This document shows positions 5,125 through 63,079 of a DNA stretch of 64,000 nucleotides, piece by piece. Both the position numbers and the translations under genes were made by a program. Source of the DNA: Myxococcales bacterium. Lineage in GTDB: Bacteria; Myxococcota; UBA727; VGSZ01. Where the stretch lies: the NCBI GenBank assembly GCA_023248635.1, contig JAHFED010000005.1, positions 1-64,000 on the forward strand. Direction: 5' to 3'. Position 1 is the first letter of the stretch; every line of letters begins with the position of its first letter. A model generated the notes under the pieces. It was not told the DNA's origin and did no database searches. It saw only the letters and a program-made list of their open reading frames with translations.

Positions 5125-5206
5125 CTTTGAAGCTCTGAAGTTTCCAGACGCTGGCGCATCTTGACGTTGTGATGTTTCAAGACGGTGGCGCGTCTTGGAG
5201 TGATCC
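5125..5206. repeat. Family A palindromes, two degenerate copies
   Basis: Two decayed copies of the CAAGACGC/GCGTCTTG palindrome follow the cupin gene. The first reads CCAGACGCTGGCGCATCTTG and the second CAAGACGGTGGCGCGTCTTG. They sit directly before a family C element. Confidence 0.75.
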
Positions 5207-7171: not shown

Positions 7172-7250
7172 CTCCTTGCAAGACGCGGCAGCGTCTTGCA
7201 AGGAGCTTCATTGTTGCAACTCAGATGTTCGAGACGCGCCAGCGTCTTGA
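7172..7250. repeat. Family A palindromes with an extended perfect stem
   Basis: The first copy (7172-7205) is CTCCTTGCAAGACGC pairing perfectly with GCGTCTTGCAAGGAG around GGCA. It is a 15-base stem in which the usual TTCAAGACGC arm has changed to TGCAAGACGC with the matching change on the other side. A second, ordinary copy (GAGACGCGCCAGCGTCTTGA) follows at about 7229-7250. It may terminate transcription of the preceding gene, though there is no T run. Confidence 0.8.
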
Positions 7251-7273
7251 ACATAAAAACTTCAGGATCGCCC

Positions 7274-10630: not shown

Positions 10631-13078
<2,448 letters not shown>

Positions 13079-25196: not shown

Positions 25197-25272
25197 GTTC
25201 TTGAAGCTCTGATGTTCGAGACGCTAGAGCGTCTTGAAGTTCTGCTGGTTCAAGACGCCGACGCGGCTTGAG
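25197..25272. repeat. Family A palindromes, two copies
   Basis: Two copies, GAGACGCTAGAGCGTCTTGA and CAAGACGCCGACGCGGCTTG, separated by the TTCTGCTGG spacer, lie between the divergent hflX and the receiver-domain gene. The second copy is decayed. A family B-like GTGCCAACGGCGCAAA follows at about 25289. Confidence 0.75.
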
Positions 25273-25408
25273 CTTTGACGTTTGCGTCGTGCCAACGGCG
25301 CAAACCAACGCACTGCCGGGCGCTGCGGCGTCTTGCCTGTGCACCTGATTCGCGACGCTGGGCGTCGTGCGTCAGCAGAGCGGAGGGCAACAGTTTGCTT
25401 GGAGGCTG

Positions 25409-31596: not shown

Positions 31597-31929
31597 ATGG
31601 CCCACGTGATTTCCCAGAAATGCATTACCGAGGTCTACGCGGCCTGCCAGCAGGTGTGCCCCGCCGACTGCATGCAGTACGTCGCCCAGCTCCCCGGTGG
31701 CTACCCAGCCTCGGGACAGCCCATGATGGTCATCGATGCCAACGAGTGCATCGACTGCGGCGCGTGCAAACCAGAGTGTCCCGTCGACGCCATCCTCCCG
31801 GGCACCGATTTCGATGCCTACTGGTCGCAGATCAACGCCAACCTGGGCCCAGCCTACAAGGGCCAGAAGGCTGCTCCCCGGGTCAAGAACGAGCGCCCCC
31901 GCCGCCCCGACAACCAAAATCGTTTTTGA
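31597..31929 (+). CDS. Seven-iron-type bacterial ferredoxin
   Basis: This 110-residue protein starts MAHVISQKCITEVYAACQQV with a GGAGA site. It carries a degenerate first cluster (CITEVYAACQQVCPADC) of the type that holds 3Fe-4S, and a perfect CIDCGACKPECP motif for a 4Fe-4S cluster. The basic C-terminal tail (KGQKAAPRVKNERPRRPDN) is longer than usual. Such proteins carry electrons at low potential for cytosolic reductases; the partner is unknown. Its stop codon merges into the first base pairs of a family A repeat. Confidence 0.92.
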   Translation: MAHVISQKCITEVYAACQQVCPADCMQYVAQLPGGYPASGQPMMVIDANECIDCGACKPECPVDAILPGTDFDAYWSQINANLGPAYKGQKAAPRVKNERPRRPDNQNRF

Positions 31930-32011
31930 AGTTTGGCTGTTCAAGACGCTGGCGCGTCTTGAAGTTTGGATGTTCAAGACGCTGGCACGTCTTGAAGTTT
32001 GGATCCTCCGG
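31930..32011. repeat. Family A palindromes, two copies
   Basis: Two copies at 31940-31963 and 31973-31996, 33 bases apart, with arms TTCAAGACGC and (in the first copy) GCGTCTTGAA. The second has one changed base (ACGTCTTGAA). They immediately follow the ferredoxin stop codon and could act as a transcript-end stem-loop. Confidence 0.88.
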
Positions 32012-33913: not shown

Positions 33914-34126
33914 ATGCTGACGTGGCTGCTCGCCTTTTTCGATTTGACGCTCGTGGCGGCGGGGTTTGCCTACCTGGGGCTGGTTCCCAGTGGCGTCGTC
34001 GTCGGCGTCAGCAAGGTGCTCTTCTTCTTTCTGCTCGGGCTCTGCGCCAGCTGTGTGCTCTTGGTTGCCTGGCGCGGCCGCACACCGCAGCTCTCGGTTG
34101 GGGTTGACGACGACGGAGCGTCCTGA
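33914..34126 (+). CDS. Small DUF1328-like membrane protein
   Basis: This 70-residue protein begins MLTWLLAFFDLTLVAAGFAY, then LGLVPSGVVVGVSKVLFFFL. Two membrane helices flank a short GLVPSGVVVGVSK turn, matching the DUF1328 pattern, followed by a polar tail. The function of the family is unknown. The last 18 codons lie inside the first unit of an 85-base tandem duplication, so the tail is repeated downstream out of use. The 227 bases before the gene show nothing recognisable. Confidence 0.75.
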   Translation: MLTWLLAFFDLTLVAAGFAYLGLVPSGVVVGVSKVLFFFLLGLCASCVLLVAWRGRTPQLSVGVDDDGAS

Positions 34127-34240
34127 AGCTTGGATGCTCCGAGATTCAAGACGCTGGCGCGGCCGCACACCGCAGCTCTCGGTTGGGGTTGACGACGACG
34201 GAGCGTCCTGAAGCTTGGATGCTCCGAGATTCAAGACGCT
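34071..34240. repeat. Perfect 85-base tandem duplication
   Basis: Bases 34071-34155 are repeated without a single change at 34156-34240. The unit includes the 3' end of the DUF1328-like gene with its stop codon and ends inside a family A palindrome. The junction falls at GGCGC, shared with the palindrome centre. The identity points to a recent event. Confidence 0.97.
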
Positions 34241-34430
34241 GGCGCGTCTTGCAGTTCTGCTGGTTCAAGACGCTGGCGCGTCTTGAAGTTCTGATGGTTC
34301 AAGACGCCGGCGCGTCTTGCAGTTCTGCTGGTTCAAGACGCTGGCGCGTCTTGAAGTTCTGATGGTTCAAGACGCTGGCGCGTCTTGAAGTTCTGATGGT
34401 TCAAGACGCTGGCGCGTCTTGAAGTTCTGA
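34230..34430. repeat. Family A array, six units with exact 34-base period
   Basis: Palindromic cores start at 34230, 34264, 34298, 34332, 34366 and 34400, each TTCAAGACGC plus a four-base loop plus GCGTCTTGAA or GCGTCTTGCA. They are separated by a 10-base spacer GTTCTGATGG or GTTCTGCTGG. The array lies between the two tiny membrane protein genes and reads in the same orientation as they do. Confidence 0.97.
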
Positions 34431-40737: not shown

Positions 40738-40872
40738 GCGTTGTGCCGATGGTTCGAGCCGCTGGCGCGTTTGAGCCGCGGGCACGGCTCAAGTGCCGAT
40801 GGTTCGAGCCGGTGGTTTGAGCCGTTGGGACGGCTCAAGGGCCGATGGTTTGAGCCGTTGGCACGGCCCCAA
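40738..40872. repeat. Family B palindromes, cluster of about five copies
   Basis: Copies read GAGCCGCTGGCGCGTTTGAG, GAGCCGCGGGCACGGCTCAA, GAGCCGTTGGGACGGCTCAA and GAGCCGTTGGCACGGC, spaced by the short motif GGGCCGATGGTT or AGTGCCGATGGTT. They fill half of the gap between the FabH-type gene and rpsN. The organisation (palindrome plus constant ATGGTT spacer) mirrors family A although the arm sequence differs. Confidence 0.85.
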
Positions 40873-45099: not shown

Positions 45100-46119
45100 T
45101 CAGGGCACGAACACCAGATCATCGATGGCGTTGCCGTCGTCGTTGGCGACGTCTTCCCAGCTCACGCCATCAAAGCTGAGGCGCCGCCGATCCGCGAATT
45201 GAGCGCCCACATACACAGGAGCGCCGTCGACGACGCCAAAGACGATCCGACCCAGAGCCGGCTGGGGCTCCTGCAGCCAATCCACCCCATCGACGGAGGT
45301 CTGGCGAAAGCCCTCGCCAACGATCAGAAAACGTTCCTCGGCAAAGACGATGTCGTTGGTGCCCGCGGTCGCCTGTGCGTTGAACGCCTGAAAGTCCCTG
45401 GTGCTGGCCCGCACCGACAAGCCCATGACGACGACGACGCCGTTGCCCTGCGCCAAGCGAAAAAGGTTCTGCGGACCCGCGGGCACCGTCCAGGCCACCC
45501 CGTCGGGGCTGGTGGACACGCCGAGATCTCCGGCGGCGACGAAGCGATCGCCGACGAAGGCCACGTCTCTCATCTCCCAGCTGCCGCCTGCAAAGAACTG
45601 CAGCGCGCCATCGACCAGGCTCTGTCCGCCATCCAGCGAGCGCGCGCTGCGAAAACTGCCGACGAAGACGAACTGGGTGCCGTCGAAGGCGCAGGCCCCG
45701 ATCCAGCCGTCATCGTCGACGATCTCAGACCAGGAGACGCCGCCGTCGACCGAGCGCATCACCCGGCCGTCCACCGATCCCCCCACCGCCAGCACGATGG
45801 TGACGCCGTCGAGCACCCCCGTGCAGGTCCCCCGCAGCAAGCGGTCGTCGTCGCCGCCGTTTGCCGTGTTCTCCACGTCGTTGGCCCAGGCCCGACCATC
45901 ACTGCTGGTGAGACGGCGTCCCCCGTAACCAACCGCGATGAAGCGCGACCCAAATGCTTCGCCTTCGCCTTCGCCTTCGCCCTCGCCCTCGCCTTCGCCT
46001 TCGCCGCCGTCGCCTTCGCCTTCGCCTTCGCCGCCTTCGCCTTCGCCCTCGCCCTCGGCGCTGGGAGCCGGGCAGGCAGGAGACACGAGCAGGAGGACCG
46101 CGAGCCCGCAGCAGCTCAT
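45100..46119 (-). CDS. Gly-Glu-linker lipoprotein with photosystem/BNR-like repeats
   Basis: This 339-residue protein starts MSCCGLAVLLLVSPACPAPS, a lipoprotein signal, and has a linker of about 20 Gly-Glu pairs with a few Gly-Asp breaks. The rest is a beta-propeller-like series of short repeats: SRFIAVGYGGRRLTSSDGRA, DGVTIVLAVGGSVDGRVMRS, TQFVFVGSFRSARSLDGG and DRFVAAGDLGVSTSPDGVAW. Each has an Asp-box-like S.DG.W unit. Such propellers are found in sialidase-like and surface-binding proteins. The binding target is unknown. A GGTGGG site supports the ATG at 46119. Confidence 0.85.
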   Translation of the reverse strand: MSCCGLAVLLLVSPACPAPSAEGEGEGEGGEGEGEGDGGEGEGEGEGEGEGEGEAFGSRFIAVGYGGRRLTSSDGRAWANDVENTANGGDDDRLLRGTCTGVLDGVTIVLAVGGSVDGRVMRSVDGGVSWSEIVDDDGWIGACAFDGTQFVFVGSFRSARSLDGGQSLVDGALQFFAGGSWEMRDVAFVGDRFVAAGDLGVSTSPDGVAWTVPAGPQNLFRLAQGNGVVVVMGLSVRASTRDFQAFNAQATAGTNDIVFAEERFLIVGEGFRQTSVDGVDWLQEPQPALGRIVFGVVDGAPVYVGAQFADRRRLSFDGVSWEDVANDDGNAIDDLVFVP

Positions 46120-58749: not shown

Positions 58750-59036
58750 TTCGAGACGCCTTGGCGTCTTGAAGCTCTGATGGTCCAAAGGCCGCCGCGC
58801 TTGCAGCGCCAGTGGAAACCGCGACGCCTGTCGAAGTGTCGCTGCTGCCAGCGCTCGACCGACGCCGTGAGACGCCGCCTCAGCCTTCTGCTGTGGAACC
58901 TAGCAGCGCGTCTCGGCCGGCGCGCGTTTGGGCGGAGCACAGAACGTCTCGGCGTTTTTCGGGTCGAGATCGTCGCGTTACCATTGCGGACCGGCGAGAC
59001 TTCAAGACGCGCCAGCGCCTTGAACATCCAAACTTC
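58750..59036. repeat. Family A palindromes flanking a 413-base gap
   Basis: One copy at about 58751-58775 (GAGACGCC/GGCGTCTTGA) lies just upstream of the response regulator. Another at about 59001-59026 (TTCAAGACGCGCCAGCGCCT) is in opposite orientation and precedes the RRM gene. Between them no gene or clear motif is seen, apart from an 8-base inverted repeat GTGGCTGC/GCAGCCAC at about 59052-59073. Confidence 0.75.
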
Positions 59037-59542: not shown

Positions 59543-59599
59543 CAGCAGCGAAGGACCATGCGCTCAGGTGACGACGTCAAGACCGCGCGCGAGCCCAGT

Positions 59600-59786
59600 T
59601 TGGATGTTCGAGACGCTGGCCCGTCTTGAAGTCTTGATGTTCAAGGCGCCGGCGCGTCTTGAAGTTTGGCTGTTCAAGACGCTGGCGCGTCTTGAAGCGT
59701 GAACGTTCGAGACGCAGGCGCGTCTTGAAGTTCTGCTGGTTCAAGACGCTGGCGCCTCGTGAAGTTTCCTGGTTCAAGACGCTGGT
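59600..59786. repeat. Family A array, six units
   Basis: Cores start at about 59607, 59640, 59673, 59706, 59740 and 59773, giving spacings of 33, 33, 33, 34 and 33 bases. Arms vary (TTCGAGACGC, TTCAAGGCGC, TTCAAGACGC), and spacers alternate between GTTTGG.T and GTTCTGCTGG types. It lies between the RRM gene and purU. The last unit is partly decayed. Confidence 0.93.
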
Positions 59787-59926
59787 CGCGTGAGCTCCAC
59801 ACTGAAACTCGTCAACAGGTCTCAGCGCTCCCAGGCAGGCCCGAGGGACGTCGCCTTCGACGTCGACGGTGCGCTTCCCCAAGGCCCGCCATTGTCTGGC
59901 AGCCCCCGCCTTGGCAGACCTCGGCC

Positions 59927-60775
59927 ATGCCCACCGAAGCCTCGCTGACCGCCCTGCTTCATGGTCCCGACCAGCGCGGGTTGGTCGCTCGCGTGGCGGG
60001 TTGGATCTTCGAGCGCGGCGGCAACATCCTCCATGCCGATCAGCACCGGGACCCGAGTGCGGGCGTCTTCTTCCAGCGCGTCGAGTGGTTGCCCGCCAAC
60101 GCCGCAGCCGACGCCGACGCTTTCTTCGCCTTCGCAAACCAGCTCGGCATGAGCGCACGGGTGGGGTCGTCGTCGAAAAGATCGCGCCTCGCGCTCTTCG
60201 TCTCCAAGGCCGACCACTGCTTCCACGATCTGGTGCTGCGTTGGAAAGCCGGCGAATTTGCCTGCGACATCGTGGCGGTGATCTCGAACCACCCAGACCT
60301 GGCCGCCGCCGCCGCCGCCTACGGACTCCCTTTCCACCTGACGCCGATCGCCGCCGCAACCAAGGCCGCCGACGAAGGACGACAGCTCGCTCTGCTCCAA
60401 TCCCTCGACATCGAGCTGGTCGTGCTCGCCCGCTACATGCAGATCCTCTCGACGGAGTTCCTGCAGGCCTTTGGGCGCCCCGTGATCAATATCCACCACT
60501 CCTTCTTGCCGGCCTTTGCGGGAGGCAAGCCCTACCACCAGGCCGCAGCCCGCGGCGTCAAGCTCATCGGCGCCACCGCGCACTACGCCACCGCAGTCCT
60601 CGACGACGGGCCCATCATCCAACAGGATGTGGCGCGGGTGACGCACCGGCACGACGTCGACGACCTCATTCGCAAAGGTCGCGACCTGGAAAAGACCGTG
60701 CTCGCCCAGGCCGTGCGCTGGCACCTCGAGCACCGCGTGCTCGTCTACGGCAACAAGACCGTGGTCTTTGACTGA
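59927..60775 (+). CDS. purU: Formyltetrahydrofolate deformylase
   Basis: This 282-residue enzyme hydrolyses 10-formyltetrahydrofolate to formate and tetrahydrofolate, balancing one-carbon pools and supplying formate. The N-terminal ACT domain (LTALLHGPDQRGLVARVAGW, IFERGGNILHADQH) is followed by the formyltransferase fold with VINIHHSFLPAFAGGKPYHQ (catalytic Asn and His), LIGATAHYATAVLDDGPIIQ and the Asp in DDGP. The ATG at 59927 gives the normal length. No purine gene adjoins it. A long family A array follows the stop codon. Confidence 0.95.
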   Translation: MPTEASLTALLHGPDQRGLVARVAGWIFERGGNILHADQHRDPSAGVFFQRVEWLPANAAADADAFFAFANQLGMSARVGSSSKRSRLALFVSKADHCFHDLVLRWKAGEFACDIVAVISNHPDLAAAAAAYGLPFHLTPIAAATKAADEGRQLALLQSLDIELVVLARYMQILSTEFLQAFGRPVINIHHSFLPAFAGGKPYHQAAARGVKLIGATAHYATAVLDDGPIIQQDVARVTHRHDVDDLIRKGRDLEKTVLAQAVRWHLEHRVLVYGNKTVVFD

Positions 60776-60785
60776 GACAGCTCTG

Positions 60786-61160
60786 TCTCAAAGCGCCAGC
60801 GTCTTGAACCGGCGAACCGTCAAGACGCGGCGCAAAGCAGAAAGCACTCCAAGACGCGACAGCGTCTTGAACCAACTTCAAGACGCGCCAGCGTCTTGAA
60901 CAGCCAACTTCAAGACGCGCCAGCGTCTTGAACAGCCAAACTTCAAGACGCGCCAGCGTCTTGAACAGCCAAACTTCAAGACGCGCCAGCGCCTTGAACA
61001 TCCAAACTTCAAGACGCGCCAGCGCCTTGAACATCCAAACTTCAAGACGCGCCAGCGCCTTGAACATCCAAACTTCAAGACGCCTGCGTCTTGAACATCC
61101 AAACTTCAAGACGCGCCAGCGTTTTGAACATCAAACCTCAAGACGCAGGCGTCTTGAAGA
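60786..61160. repeat. Family A array, about eleven units, mostly 33-base period
   Basis: Full cores start at about 60877, 60909, 60942, 60975, 61008, 61041, 61074, 61105 and 61137, with decayed copies before 60877. The orientation is the reverse of the arrays at 34230 and 59600. Spacers read CAGCCAAAC or CATCCAAAC. The last two or three units have a loop shortened by two bases yet keep perfect arms. It fills the gap between convergent purU and the VWA lipoprotein gene. Confidence 0.96.
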
Positions 61161-61168
61161 TCAGACGG

Positions 61169-63079
61169 TCAGCGACGGGCAACCCGCGGTTCGACGAGGA
61201 CGAGCTCCCGAGCAAGCTCGAGCCGCTCAGCGGCGTGGGGTCCCGTCGCGGCCTCTCGCAAGAGGCTGGCCGCTTCGCCCAAGGTTCGACCTTCGGCGTA
61301 GGGAGAGCCCCGCAGGATTTCCGCGGCCAACGCCACCGCCAACGCCGCCTGGGCATCGCTGTCAAGGTCGTTGGGGCGCTCGCGCAGGGAGCCGCCGGTG
61401 ATGGCCACCGCGATCTCTTCGGCCTTGCTGCCCCGCGGTTTCTGGGCGCGCACGCGAACGGTGCCGAGGTTCGCCGACGGCGACGACGACGACAAGTGCA
61501 ACTCATAGAGGGCGGTGACCGCGTGGCCGGCGCCAATCTCGCCCGCATCTTTCTTGTCGTTGCGGAAGTCGACGTCGGCGACGTCGCGGTTCTCGTAGCC
61601 CACGAGGCGGTAGCTGGTGACGATGTCCTTGTTCCATTCGACTTGGATCTTCACATTCTGGGCGATGGTCTCGAGGGTGCCATTGAGCTCCTGCACGAAG
61701 ACTCGTTCGGCGGTCTTTTTCGAATCGATGTAGCTGTAGTTGCCGTTGCCAGCGTCGGCGAGCTGCTCCATCAAATTGTCGTTGTAGTTGCCAGTGCCGA
61801 AGCCCACCGTCGACATCATCACGCCCTCGCTGACGTAGCCGCGGATGGCCTTGAGAATGTCCTGATGGGACAAGCGGCCAATGTTGACGTCGCCGTCGGA
61901 GAGCACCACGACGCGCGCGCTGCGGCCGCCGCCGAGGTTCTTGCCCGCTTCACGGTAGGCCAGCTCCATGCCGCTGCCCATGTTGGTGCCGCCGCCGGAG
62001 TGCAGGCTCTCGATGGCGGCGTGGATGCGGGCTTTGTTCCCCTTGATCATCGTCGACGCCAGCGCGAGGCGGGTCTCGCCGGCGTAGGTGGTGATGGCCA
62101 CGCTGTCGTCGTCGCGGAGCTCGTCCACCAACAGGTGCAGGGCATCGCGCGCCAGCGGGAGCTTGTCGGCGGCGTCCATGGAGCCAGAGACGTCGGCGAG
62201 GAACACCAGGCTCGTCGGACCGCGCTCCGCTTTGGACACGCGCTTGCCCTGCAAGGCGATGCGCACGAGGTGGGTGTTCTTGGCGATGGGCGAGGGCGCC
62301 CCCTGCACCAGCACCGAGAAGGGCACCGACGACGTCTTGGCTGGTCCTTCATAGGAGTAGTGCATGGCGTTGACCCACTCCTCGACGCGGACGGCGCCTT
62401 CGGGAGGCACCTGCCCCTGGCGCAAGAAGCGGCGCGCAAAGGTGAAGGAGCCCGTGTCGACGTCGATGGCGAAGGTGGACCGGGCGTCTGTCACCGTGTC
62501 GATGAAGGGATTGGTGCCAGCGTGCACGAAGGTCCCGCCCGTCGCAGCGGGGTCGGGCCTCAGGTCGGGGGAAGAGTCCGATGTCGTCGTGGGAGCCTTG
62601 GTGGCCGATGTGCTCGCCGTTGCCTTGCGCTTTTCGCTGAGCTCCTCCTTCGCTTGGGCACGCGCGCTTTCGATCGCGAATTCTCTGCCCTCTGTTTTTG
62701 ACCCGACTTTCCCTGCGCCCAGCGAGCCCAGACCGACGCCGCTGCCGACGCCGGCGCTGCCGCCCACGCTCAGGAGGCCGCTGTCCCCCAGACCCAGCGG
62801 GCCCTCGGCGCCATGGACGCGTTTGGCCGCGTCCTGTCGGAGCTCCACGGGCGGCGCTGCGGGGACTGGGACCTCAGCGGCGACGGCGGGTGCGGACTCG
62901 CCCGCCGCGGGCGAAGGCTTGCTGGCCTCAGGGGCCACCCGGGGCGCAGCGTCGTTGCCGCCGTCATCGCGGGGCGCGGCTGGGGCACTTTCGATGTTGG
63001 CGCCGGCGCAGGAAACGAGGCCGGCGGCGCAGATCAGGGCGACGGCAGTCAGGATGTGGAGACCAGGGCGGCGGAGCAT
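61169..63079 (-). CDS. VWA-domain lipoprotein (YfbK-like)
   Basis: This 636-residue protein starts MLRRPGLHILTAVALICAAG with a lipobox Cys after LVS, behind a GAGGTGAA site. A Pro/Ala/Gly-rich linker of about 170 residues leads to the VWA_N-like segment (TFAIDVDTGSFTFARRFLRQ, VRVEEWVNAMHYSY). The VWA domain has an intact metal site, LVFLADVSGSMDAADKLPLA (DxSGS), with GGGTNMGSGMELAYREA and VVVLSDGDVNIGRLS. The C-terminal part matches the DUF3520 partner of YfbK proteins. These are surface or periplasmic proteins of unclear role, possibly adhesive or chaperone-like. Confidence 0.9.
   Translation of the reverse strand: MLRRPGLHILTAVALICAAGLVSCAGANIESAPAAPRDDGGNDAAPRVAPEASKPSPAAGESAPAVAAEVPVPAAPPVELRQDAAKRVHGAEGPLGLGDSGLLSVGGSAGVGSGVGLGSLGAGKVGSKTEGREFAIESARAQAKEELSEKRKATASTSATKAPTTTSDSSPDLRPDPAATGGTFVHAGTNPFIDTVTDARSTFAIDVDTGSFTFARRFLRQGQVPPEGAVRVEEWVNAMHYSYEGPAKTSSVPFSVLVQGAPSPIAKNTHLVRIALQGKRVSKAERGPTSLVFLADVSGSMDAADKLPLARDALHLLVDELRDDDSVAITTYAGETRLALASTMIKGNKARIHAAIESLHSGGGTNMGSGMELAYREAGKNLGGGRSARVVVLSDGDVNIGRLSHQDILKAIRGYVSEGVMMSTVGFGTGNYNDNLMEQLADAGNGNYSYIDSKKTAERVFVQELNGTLETIAQNVKIQVEWNKDIVTSYRLVGYENRDVADVDFRNDKKDAGEIGAGHAVTALYELHLSSSSPSANLGTVRVRAQKPRGSKAEEIAVAITGGSLRERPNDLDSDAQAALAVALAAEILRGSPYAEGRTLGEAASLLREAATGPHAAERLELARELVLVEPRVARR

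Follow-up and report, generated by a model that had tools for sequence, protein, structure and literature searches.

The gap between a purU-like gene and the convergent gene of a vWA/YfbK-like protein holds an array of palindromes, and the question that it raises is how REP-like repeats without a transposase of their own, such as the CGTC REPs and the Rickettsia RPEs, move. The array belongs to a hairpin repeat that has spread through one bacterial species, apparently as miniature mobile DNA whose mover the searches of the genome did not find.

The array and its neighbours

The 393-bp gap between the stop codon of purU (60775) and the end of the vWA gene (61169) is occupied throughout by the array. 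Read on the minus strand, each unit comprises a 9–10-nt tag, GTTTGGATG or GTTTGGCTG, followed by the hairpin TTCAAGACGC-TGGC-GCGTCTTGAA. TRF assigned 60846–61146 a period of 33, with 9.4 copies and 93% matches. Units identified with ≤ 3 mismatches start at 60848, 60877, 60909, 60942, 60975, 61008, 61041 and 61105. Two further units, at 61074–61095 and 61137–61158, have 2-nt loops, and ~ 60786–60828 consists of degenerate unit pieces, giving a total of ~ 11 units. Mutations private to adjacent units, for example GGCGC in three consecutive units at 60975–61064, are a sign of local duplication.

The sequence-only reading had described a palindrome array of about eleven units between convergent genes, distinct from CRISPR and recurring in other gaps. 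All of this is borne out: the spacers are a repeated 9–11-nt tag rather than unique sequence, and further units of this family, termed A, occur at several loci of the window, the 64-kb stretch of DNA that was analysed (Table 1). The spacer, taken to be a constant 9–10 bases, is mostly 9 nt long but ranges from 5 to 9 nt. The array is also less pure than that reading implied; a relic of a second family lies among its A units. With ≤ 3 mismatches, the window contains 29 A-family matches, compared with 0.01 expected from dinucleotide shuffles. No clear purU orthologue was found in two congeners for comparison of the gap.

Other repeats accompany these units in the window. A perfect 85-bp tandem duplication (34069–34246) ends in a partial A unit beside a 6-unit array, and hexamer arrays (TCACCC, CTTCGC), with periods that are multiples of 3, are located at 11679–11791 and 45957–46061.

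Table 1 Repeat units and neighbouring genes in the window.
Feature	Coordinates	Strand	Remarks
A-family array, ~ 11 tag-plus-hairpin units	60786–61160	−	TGGC loop on minus strand
C-family relic within A array	60828–60847 (approx.)	−	GTGCTTTCTGC tag and half stem TTTGCGCCG
purU-like gene, left convergent neighbour	59927–60775	+	Formyl_trans_N, weak ACT
vWA/YfbK-like protein gene, right convergent neighbour	61169–63079	−	
A-family array, ~ 6 units	59597–59791	+	RRM gene/purU tandem gap
Lone A-family unit	59001–59024	−	
Lone A-family unit	58750–58773	+	Diverged loop CTTG
A-family array, 6 units	34230–34430	+	Period 34; adjoins 85-bp tandem duplication
A-family, two units	31926–32004	+	Stop of upstream gene (31927–31929) is the TGA of the left TTGAA
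A-family, two units, then inverted C-family unit	25200–25304	+	C-family unit at 25281–25304
A-family, two diverged units	7177–7251		
A-family, two diverged units	5142–5199	+	
Palindrome array related to C/D family	40743–40861		TTGAGCCG/CGGCTCAA

Spread, sister families and unit borders

The genome assembly (6.53 Mb, 135 contigs, 96.7% complete) contains 229 family A copies with exact arms and a loop of 0–8 nt, and 488 copies when ≤ 3 mismatches are allowed. No exact copy was found in 96 relatives, two of which are congeners, and no near copy (≤ 3 mismatches) in the two congeners. The sister families B and C described below are likewise absent from the 96 relatives, and a search of viral contigs with every family gave no match. 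Among 84,980 species, represented by one genome each, exact A arms occur elsewhere only at seven loci of Bradyrhizobium macuxiense. The 10-bp arms there are identical; at the two of these loci that were read they enclose an AAGT loop, and a single unit lies within another shared repeat. With a different loop and different surroundings at these two loci, the resemblance looks convergent and is treated as such.

A 2.03-Mb portion of the genome was analysed with a home-made gene caller. It contains 197 A units at 98 loci, 59 of which hold a single unit. Intergenic units number 178 of the 197, a count that depends on approximate gene calls and starts, because some units scored as genic fall in questionable ORFs or where a start was misplaced. 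The proposal of a genome-wide, mainly intergenic family therefore stands, as neither of the outcomes named against it, a handful of copies confined to the window or equal occurrence within genes, was observed; the sister families and the copies within genes had escaped the earlier reading.

The TGGC loop is not confined to family A. In 1.23 Mb, 196 hairpins carry this loop, whereas none of the other 4-nt loops tested, 11 in number, occurs in more than 9; 234 kb sampled from one congener gave no comparable excess. Family B has the stem TTCATCGCC/GGCGATGAA and the tag TTGTCTACAGG, and family C the stem TTTGCGCCGT/ACGGCGCAAA with the tag GTGCTTCCTGC or GTGCCGATGG; family D is a compensated variant of C. 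The 2.03 Mb contain 116 B units and 155 C units, D included in C. The stems of A, B and C are unrelated, and the three families have the oriented TGGC loop and head-to-tail arrays in common. Units of family B are often interleaved with another hairpin, TTCACCGACA..TGTCGGTGAA, so that the period is 63 bp (e.g., contig C11, 53223–53475). The same genome also harbours intergenic palindrome families with other loops, namely GGAGGGTCTG..CAGACCCTCC, CTCGTCGAGGC..GCCTCGACGAG, GGGAGGTCTG-CAC-CAGACCTCCC and GGGGTCCAGGG..CCCTGGACCCC, with example sites at 98284–98318 and 137329 of contig C9 and 29154 of contig C96.

The borders of family A were defined from 91 independent loci with unrelated flanks. Read along the TGGC strand, the conserved stretch includes ~ 14 nt upstream (TTGAAG...GATG) and goes no further than the hairpin's 3′ foot. 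Of the single units that have a one-sided tag, 36 carry it 5′ in the TGGC-strand orientation and 1 carries it on the opposite side. Neighbouring units are arranged head-to-tail in 188 of 203 pairs and inverted in 15, and at each of the seven junctions where two families meet head-to-tail, the tag matches the downstream hairpin. The one-sided borders and the junction tags thus define the unit as a tag plus a hairpin, joined after ...AA. The start of a unit follows a TTGAA-like site, which in many cases is the upstream gene's stop codon. Within arrays TTGAA is common to the joins and is not duplicated at each.

These borders bear on the possibility that the repeats are MITEs, i.e., non-autonomous double-stranded DNA transposons with inverted terminal repeats, moved by a DDE transposase. 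The repeats are indeed short, palindromic and dispersed, and family B possesses an outer inverted repeat, TGTCGGTGAA/TTCACCGACA. However, the asymmetric borders of family A, with the tag on one side, provide no terminal inverted repeats at both ends, the TTGAA of arrays is shared between joins, and the 2.03 Mb contain no multicopy transposase. A MITE origin is improbable.

Adjacent A tags of the same array are identical in 30 of 52 cases, compared with 4.8% for tags of different arrays, a difference that indicates growth of arrays in place. Slippage of a few old insertions, with gene conversion and spread by recombination but no transposition, could produce this pattern of tags. It leaves unexplained the 91 independent loci with unrelated flanks, the in-frame inserts at unrelated sites in genes, and the loci with a single unit. 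Local amplification as the main explanation is improbable.

Insertion sites and decay of copies

In the 2.03 Mb, family A reaches 0.34 units per kb of gap between tandem genes, 0.59 in convergent gaps and 0.34 in divergent gaps. Promoter-bearing gaps are thus not avoided, since divergent gaps contain as many units per kb as tandem ones. Of 75 gap arrays, 14 have a hairpin that starts 9–11 nt past a stop codon; the expected number was 1.8, and 5000 random placements never gave more than 8. A histidine kinase adjoining a unit ends at the C-terminus matched by its homologues, which indicates that the gene was not truncated. When the same comparison with PDB homologues was made for other genes, two had no match and one TPR protein was uninformative.

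Some copies lie in frame within genes. TsaB carries ~ 70 extra residues of repeated ELSTGSSPGGD, absent from 7 relatives, and AroA an in-frame EFTDSASRVGELSTGSSPGGD stretch absent from 8 relatives; both congeners are included in each comparison. A VOC protein has ~ 20 extra residues relative to PDB entry 4z04. Pfam places other copies in genes for protein kinases, a ThiF protein, a MerR regulator, an alpha/beta hydrolase, an MlaE permease, a lipoyl ligase and GlnD. Family B inserts are read in one polar open frame in 26 of 34 units, in another polar frame in 5 and in a more hydrophobic open frame in 1. Each gene is otherwise conserved, which suggests that the proteins bearing inserts work. These copies add another example of in-frame hairpin repeats that are tolerated by probably essential genes.

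Stem changes in family A are compensated in 2 cases and uncompensated in 108, which indicates that copies decay after insertion. This fits a structure that matters for propagation and not for host function. In decayed copies, G·T and A·C mismatches are equally frequent (27 and 25), so that neither is an RNA role supported nor a strand marked. No T run of the kind that marks an intrinsic terminator is conserved 3′ of the hairpin on the TGGC strand.

The host might nonetheless maintain the copies, either as sites at which a nucleoid or regulatory protein binds or as RNA terminator or stability hairpins under selection. The mostly intergenic placement, the stable hairpins and the somewhat higher density of family A in convergent gaps point in that direction. 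The uncompensated stem changes, the filling of divergent gaps and the copies within aroA, tsaB and other genes point away from it, as do the congeners without repeats and the lack of any Rfam match in the window. A protein-binding array, suggested earlier, is disfavoured further because the families have the non-palindromic TGGC centre in common while their arms differ, and arm mutations within a family are uncompensated. Maintenance by the host is therefore unlikely.

Mobilisation and relation to known repeats

Mobilisation by a RayT transposase, also raised by the sequence-only reading, finds no support here. Two profile searches of the genome with Y1_Tnp (PF01797) gave no match, whereas matches exist in 36 of the 58 genomes of the phylum that were searched and in 5 of 14 control genomes; with an assembly that is 96.7% complete, the absence of Y1/RAYT is not absolute. 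No transposase-like or insertion-sequence-like multicopy gene was found in the 2.03 Mb. Given the abundance of short repeats in this genome, the lack of multicopy IS-like genes in this portion stands out.

The single reverse transcriptase (RT) of the genome is that of a type XIII retron (contig C11, 74561–79004). Of the three msr-msd copies of this retron, one precedes the RT gene and two follow it. The three msd stems differ strongly yet are still base-paired. Hairpin single-stranded DNA made by this enzyme and inserted into the genome is a conceivable source of the repeats, as proposed for Nannocystis exedens according to a title in the reference list of PMC6868368, and an A unit is present in the leader of the first retron ncRNA copy. 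The other two ncRNA copies lack that unit, the 2.03 Mb contain no further copies of the msd stems, and the repeat sequence differs from the msd of this genome. The retron was accordingly rejected as the source and is a very improbable one. The second ncRNA copy provides the one empty site found in the genome, a rough one, with TTGAA near the corresponding place and ~ 7 nt that also differ. Among the candidates listed by BLAST searches with the flanks for paralogous empty sites, only overlaps of repeat copies were recognised.

The repeats resemble the GTAG REPs and REPINs (PMC3733652) in combining a short oriented tag with a hairpin, in their hundreds of mostly intergenic copies, in their proximity to stop codons and in the presence of several families per genome. 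As short palindromic units with > 100 copies, mainly in intergenic regions, they match the general description of REPs. However, the 5′ tags observed here are GGATG, TGATG or GATGG, ACAGG and CCTGC, built on GATG(G), CAGG or CTGC rather than a GTAG-like tetranucleotide; neighbours are head-to-tail rather than in the inverted pairs of REPINs; and the searches found no Y1 transposase in the genome. Owing to these differences in tag, orientation and enzyme, the repeats are not filed as REPs. The earlier comparison with REP/BIME families thus holds for the genome-wide, REP-like character and not for BIMEs. Arrays of palindromes in 3′ gaps are a feature shared with enterobacterial BIMEs, but BIMEs alternate in orientation (PMC2817692). 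The msDNA-like repeats of N. exedens, known here from the title cited in PMC6868368, are likewise dispersed in a genome with a retron; unlike those, the present sequence is not that of its own genome's msd.

The CGTC REPs, including Rickettsia RPE-4 and RPE-6, are similar in other respects. They have 8–9-bp stems that start with A/T pairs, 4–5-nt loops, no known dedicated transposase, and in-frame insertions in genes, which, as in RPEs, affect conserved genes here. They differ in their CGTC (TGTC, CCTC) tag and CCA tail, neither of which occurs here, and in forming mostly head-head dimers rather than head-to-tail arrays. PMC3733652 covers both REP classes, including their contacts with stop codons, the copies inside genes and the lack of a known transposase for the CGTC class; it does not mention the present lineage under the names Myxococc- or delta. 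An experimental parallel to the oriented TGGC loop comes from the Stenotrophomonas maltophilia TnpAREP, for which the correct loop sequence and orientation are needed and stem changes have milder effects (PMC8266576); loop orientation thus matters for at least one such enzyme.

The repeats are probably REP/RPE-like miniature mobile elements that move as single-stranded hairpins and then give rise to arrays locally. The unit is an oriented 9–11-nt tag followed by a 9–10-bp hairpin with a TGGC loop. A strand-processing enzyme, HUH-type by analogy, may recognise the single-stranded hairpin through the loop and tag and join it 3′ of a short ...AA^G(T) site (TTGAA in family A) without creating inverted pairs. 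Arrays then extend by local tandem duplication, as their pattern shows, and inserted copies, which bear no sign of host function, decay neutrally. We infer the movement itself, because one genome per species was compared. The lack of a Y1 transposase in the genome and of a multicopy transposase in the 2.03 Mb counts against this reading; the mobilising enzyme therefore stays hypothetical and recent activity unproven. The single rough empty site and the lack of strand preference among mismatches also weigh against it.

Three unrelated stem families with one oriented loop and one tag-hairpin plan indicate what a mobilising enzyme must read. We tentatively consider a system free of Y1/RAYT, in which one putative enzyme reads the TGGC loop and the 5′ tag of unrelated stems and inserts units head-to-tail 3′ of ...AA. 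If such a system exists, its insertions would be tolerated at stop codons and in frame within probably essential genes. The repeats supply exact substrates with which to test for the mobilising enzyme.
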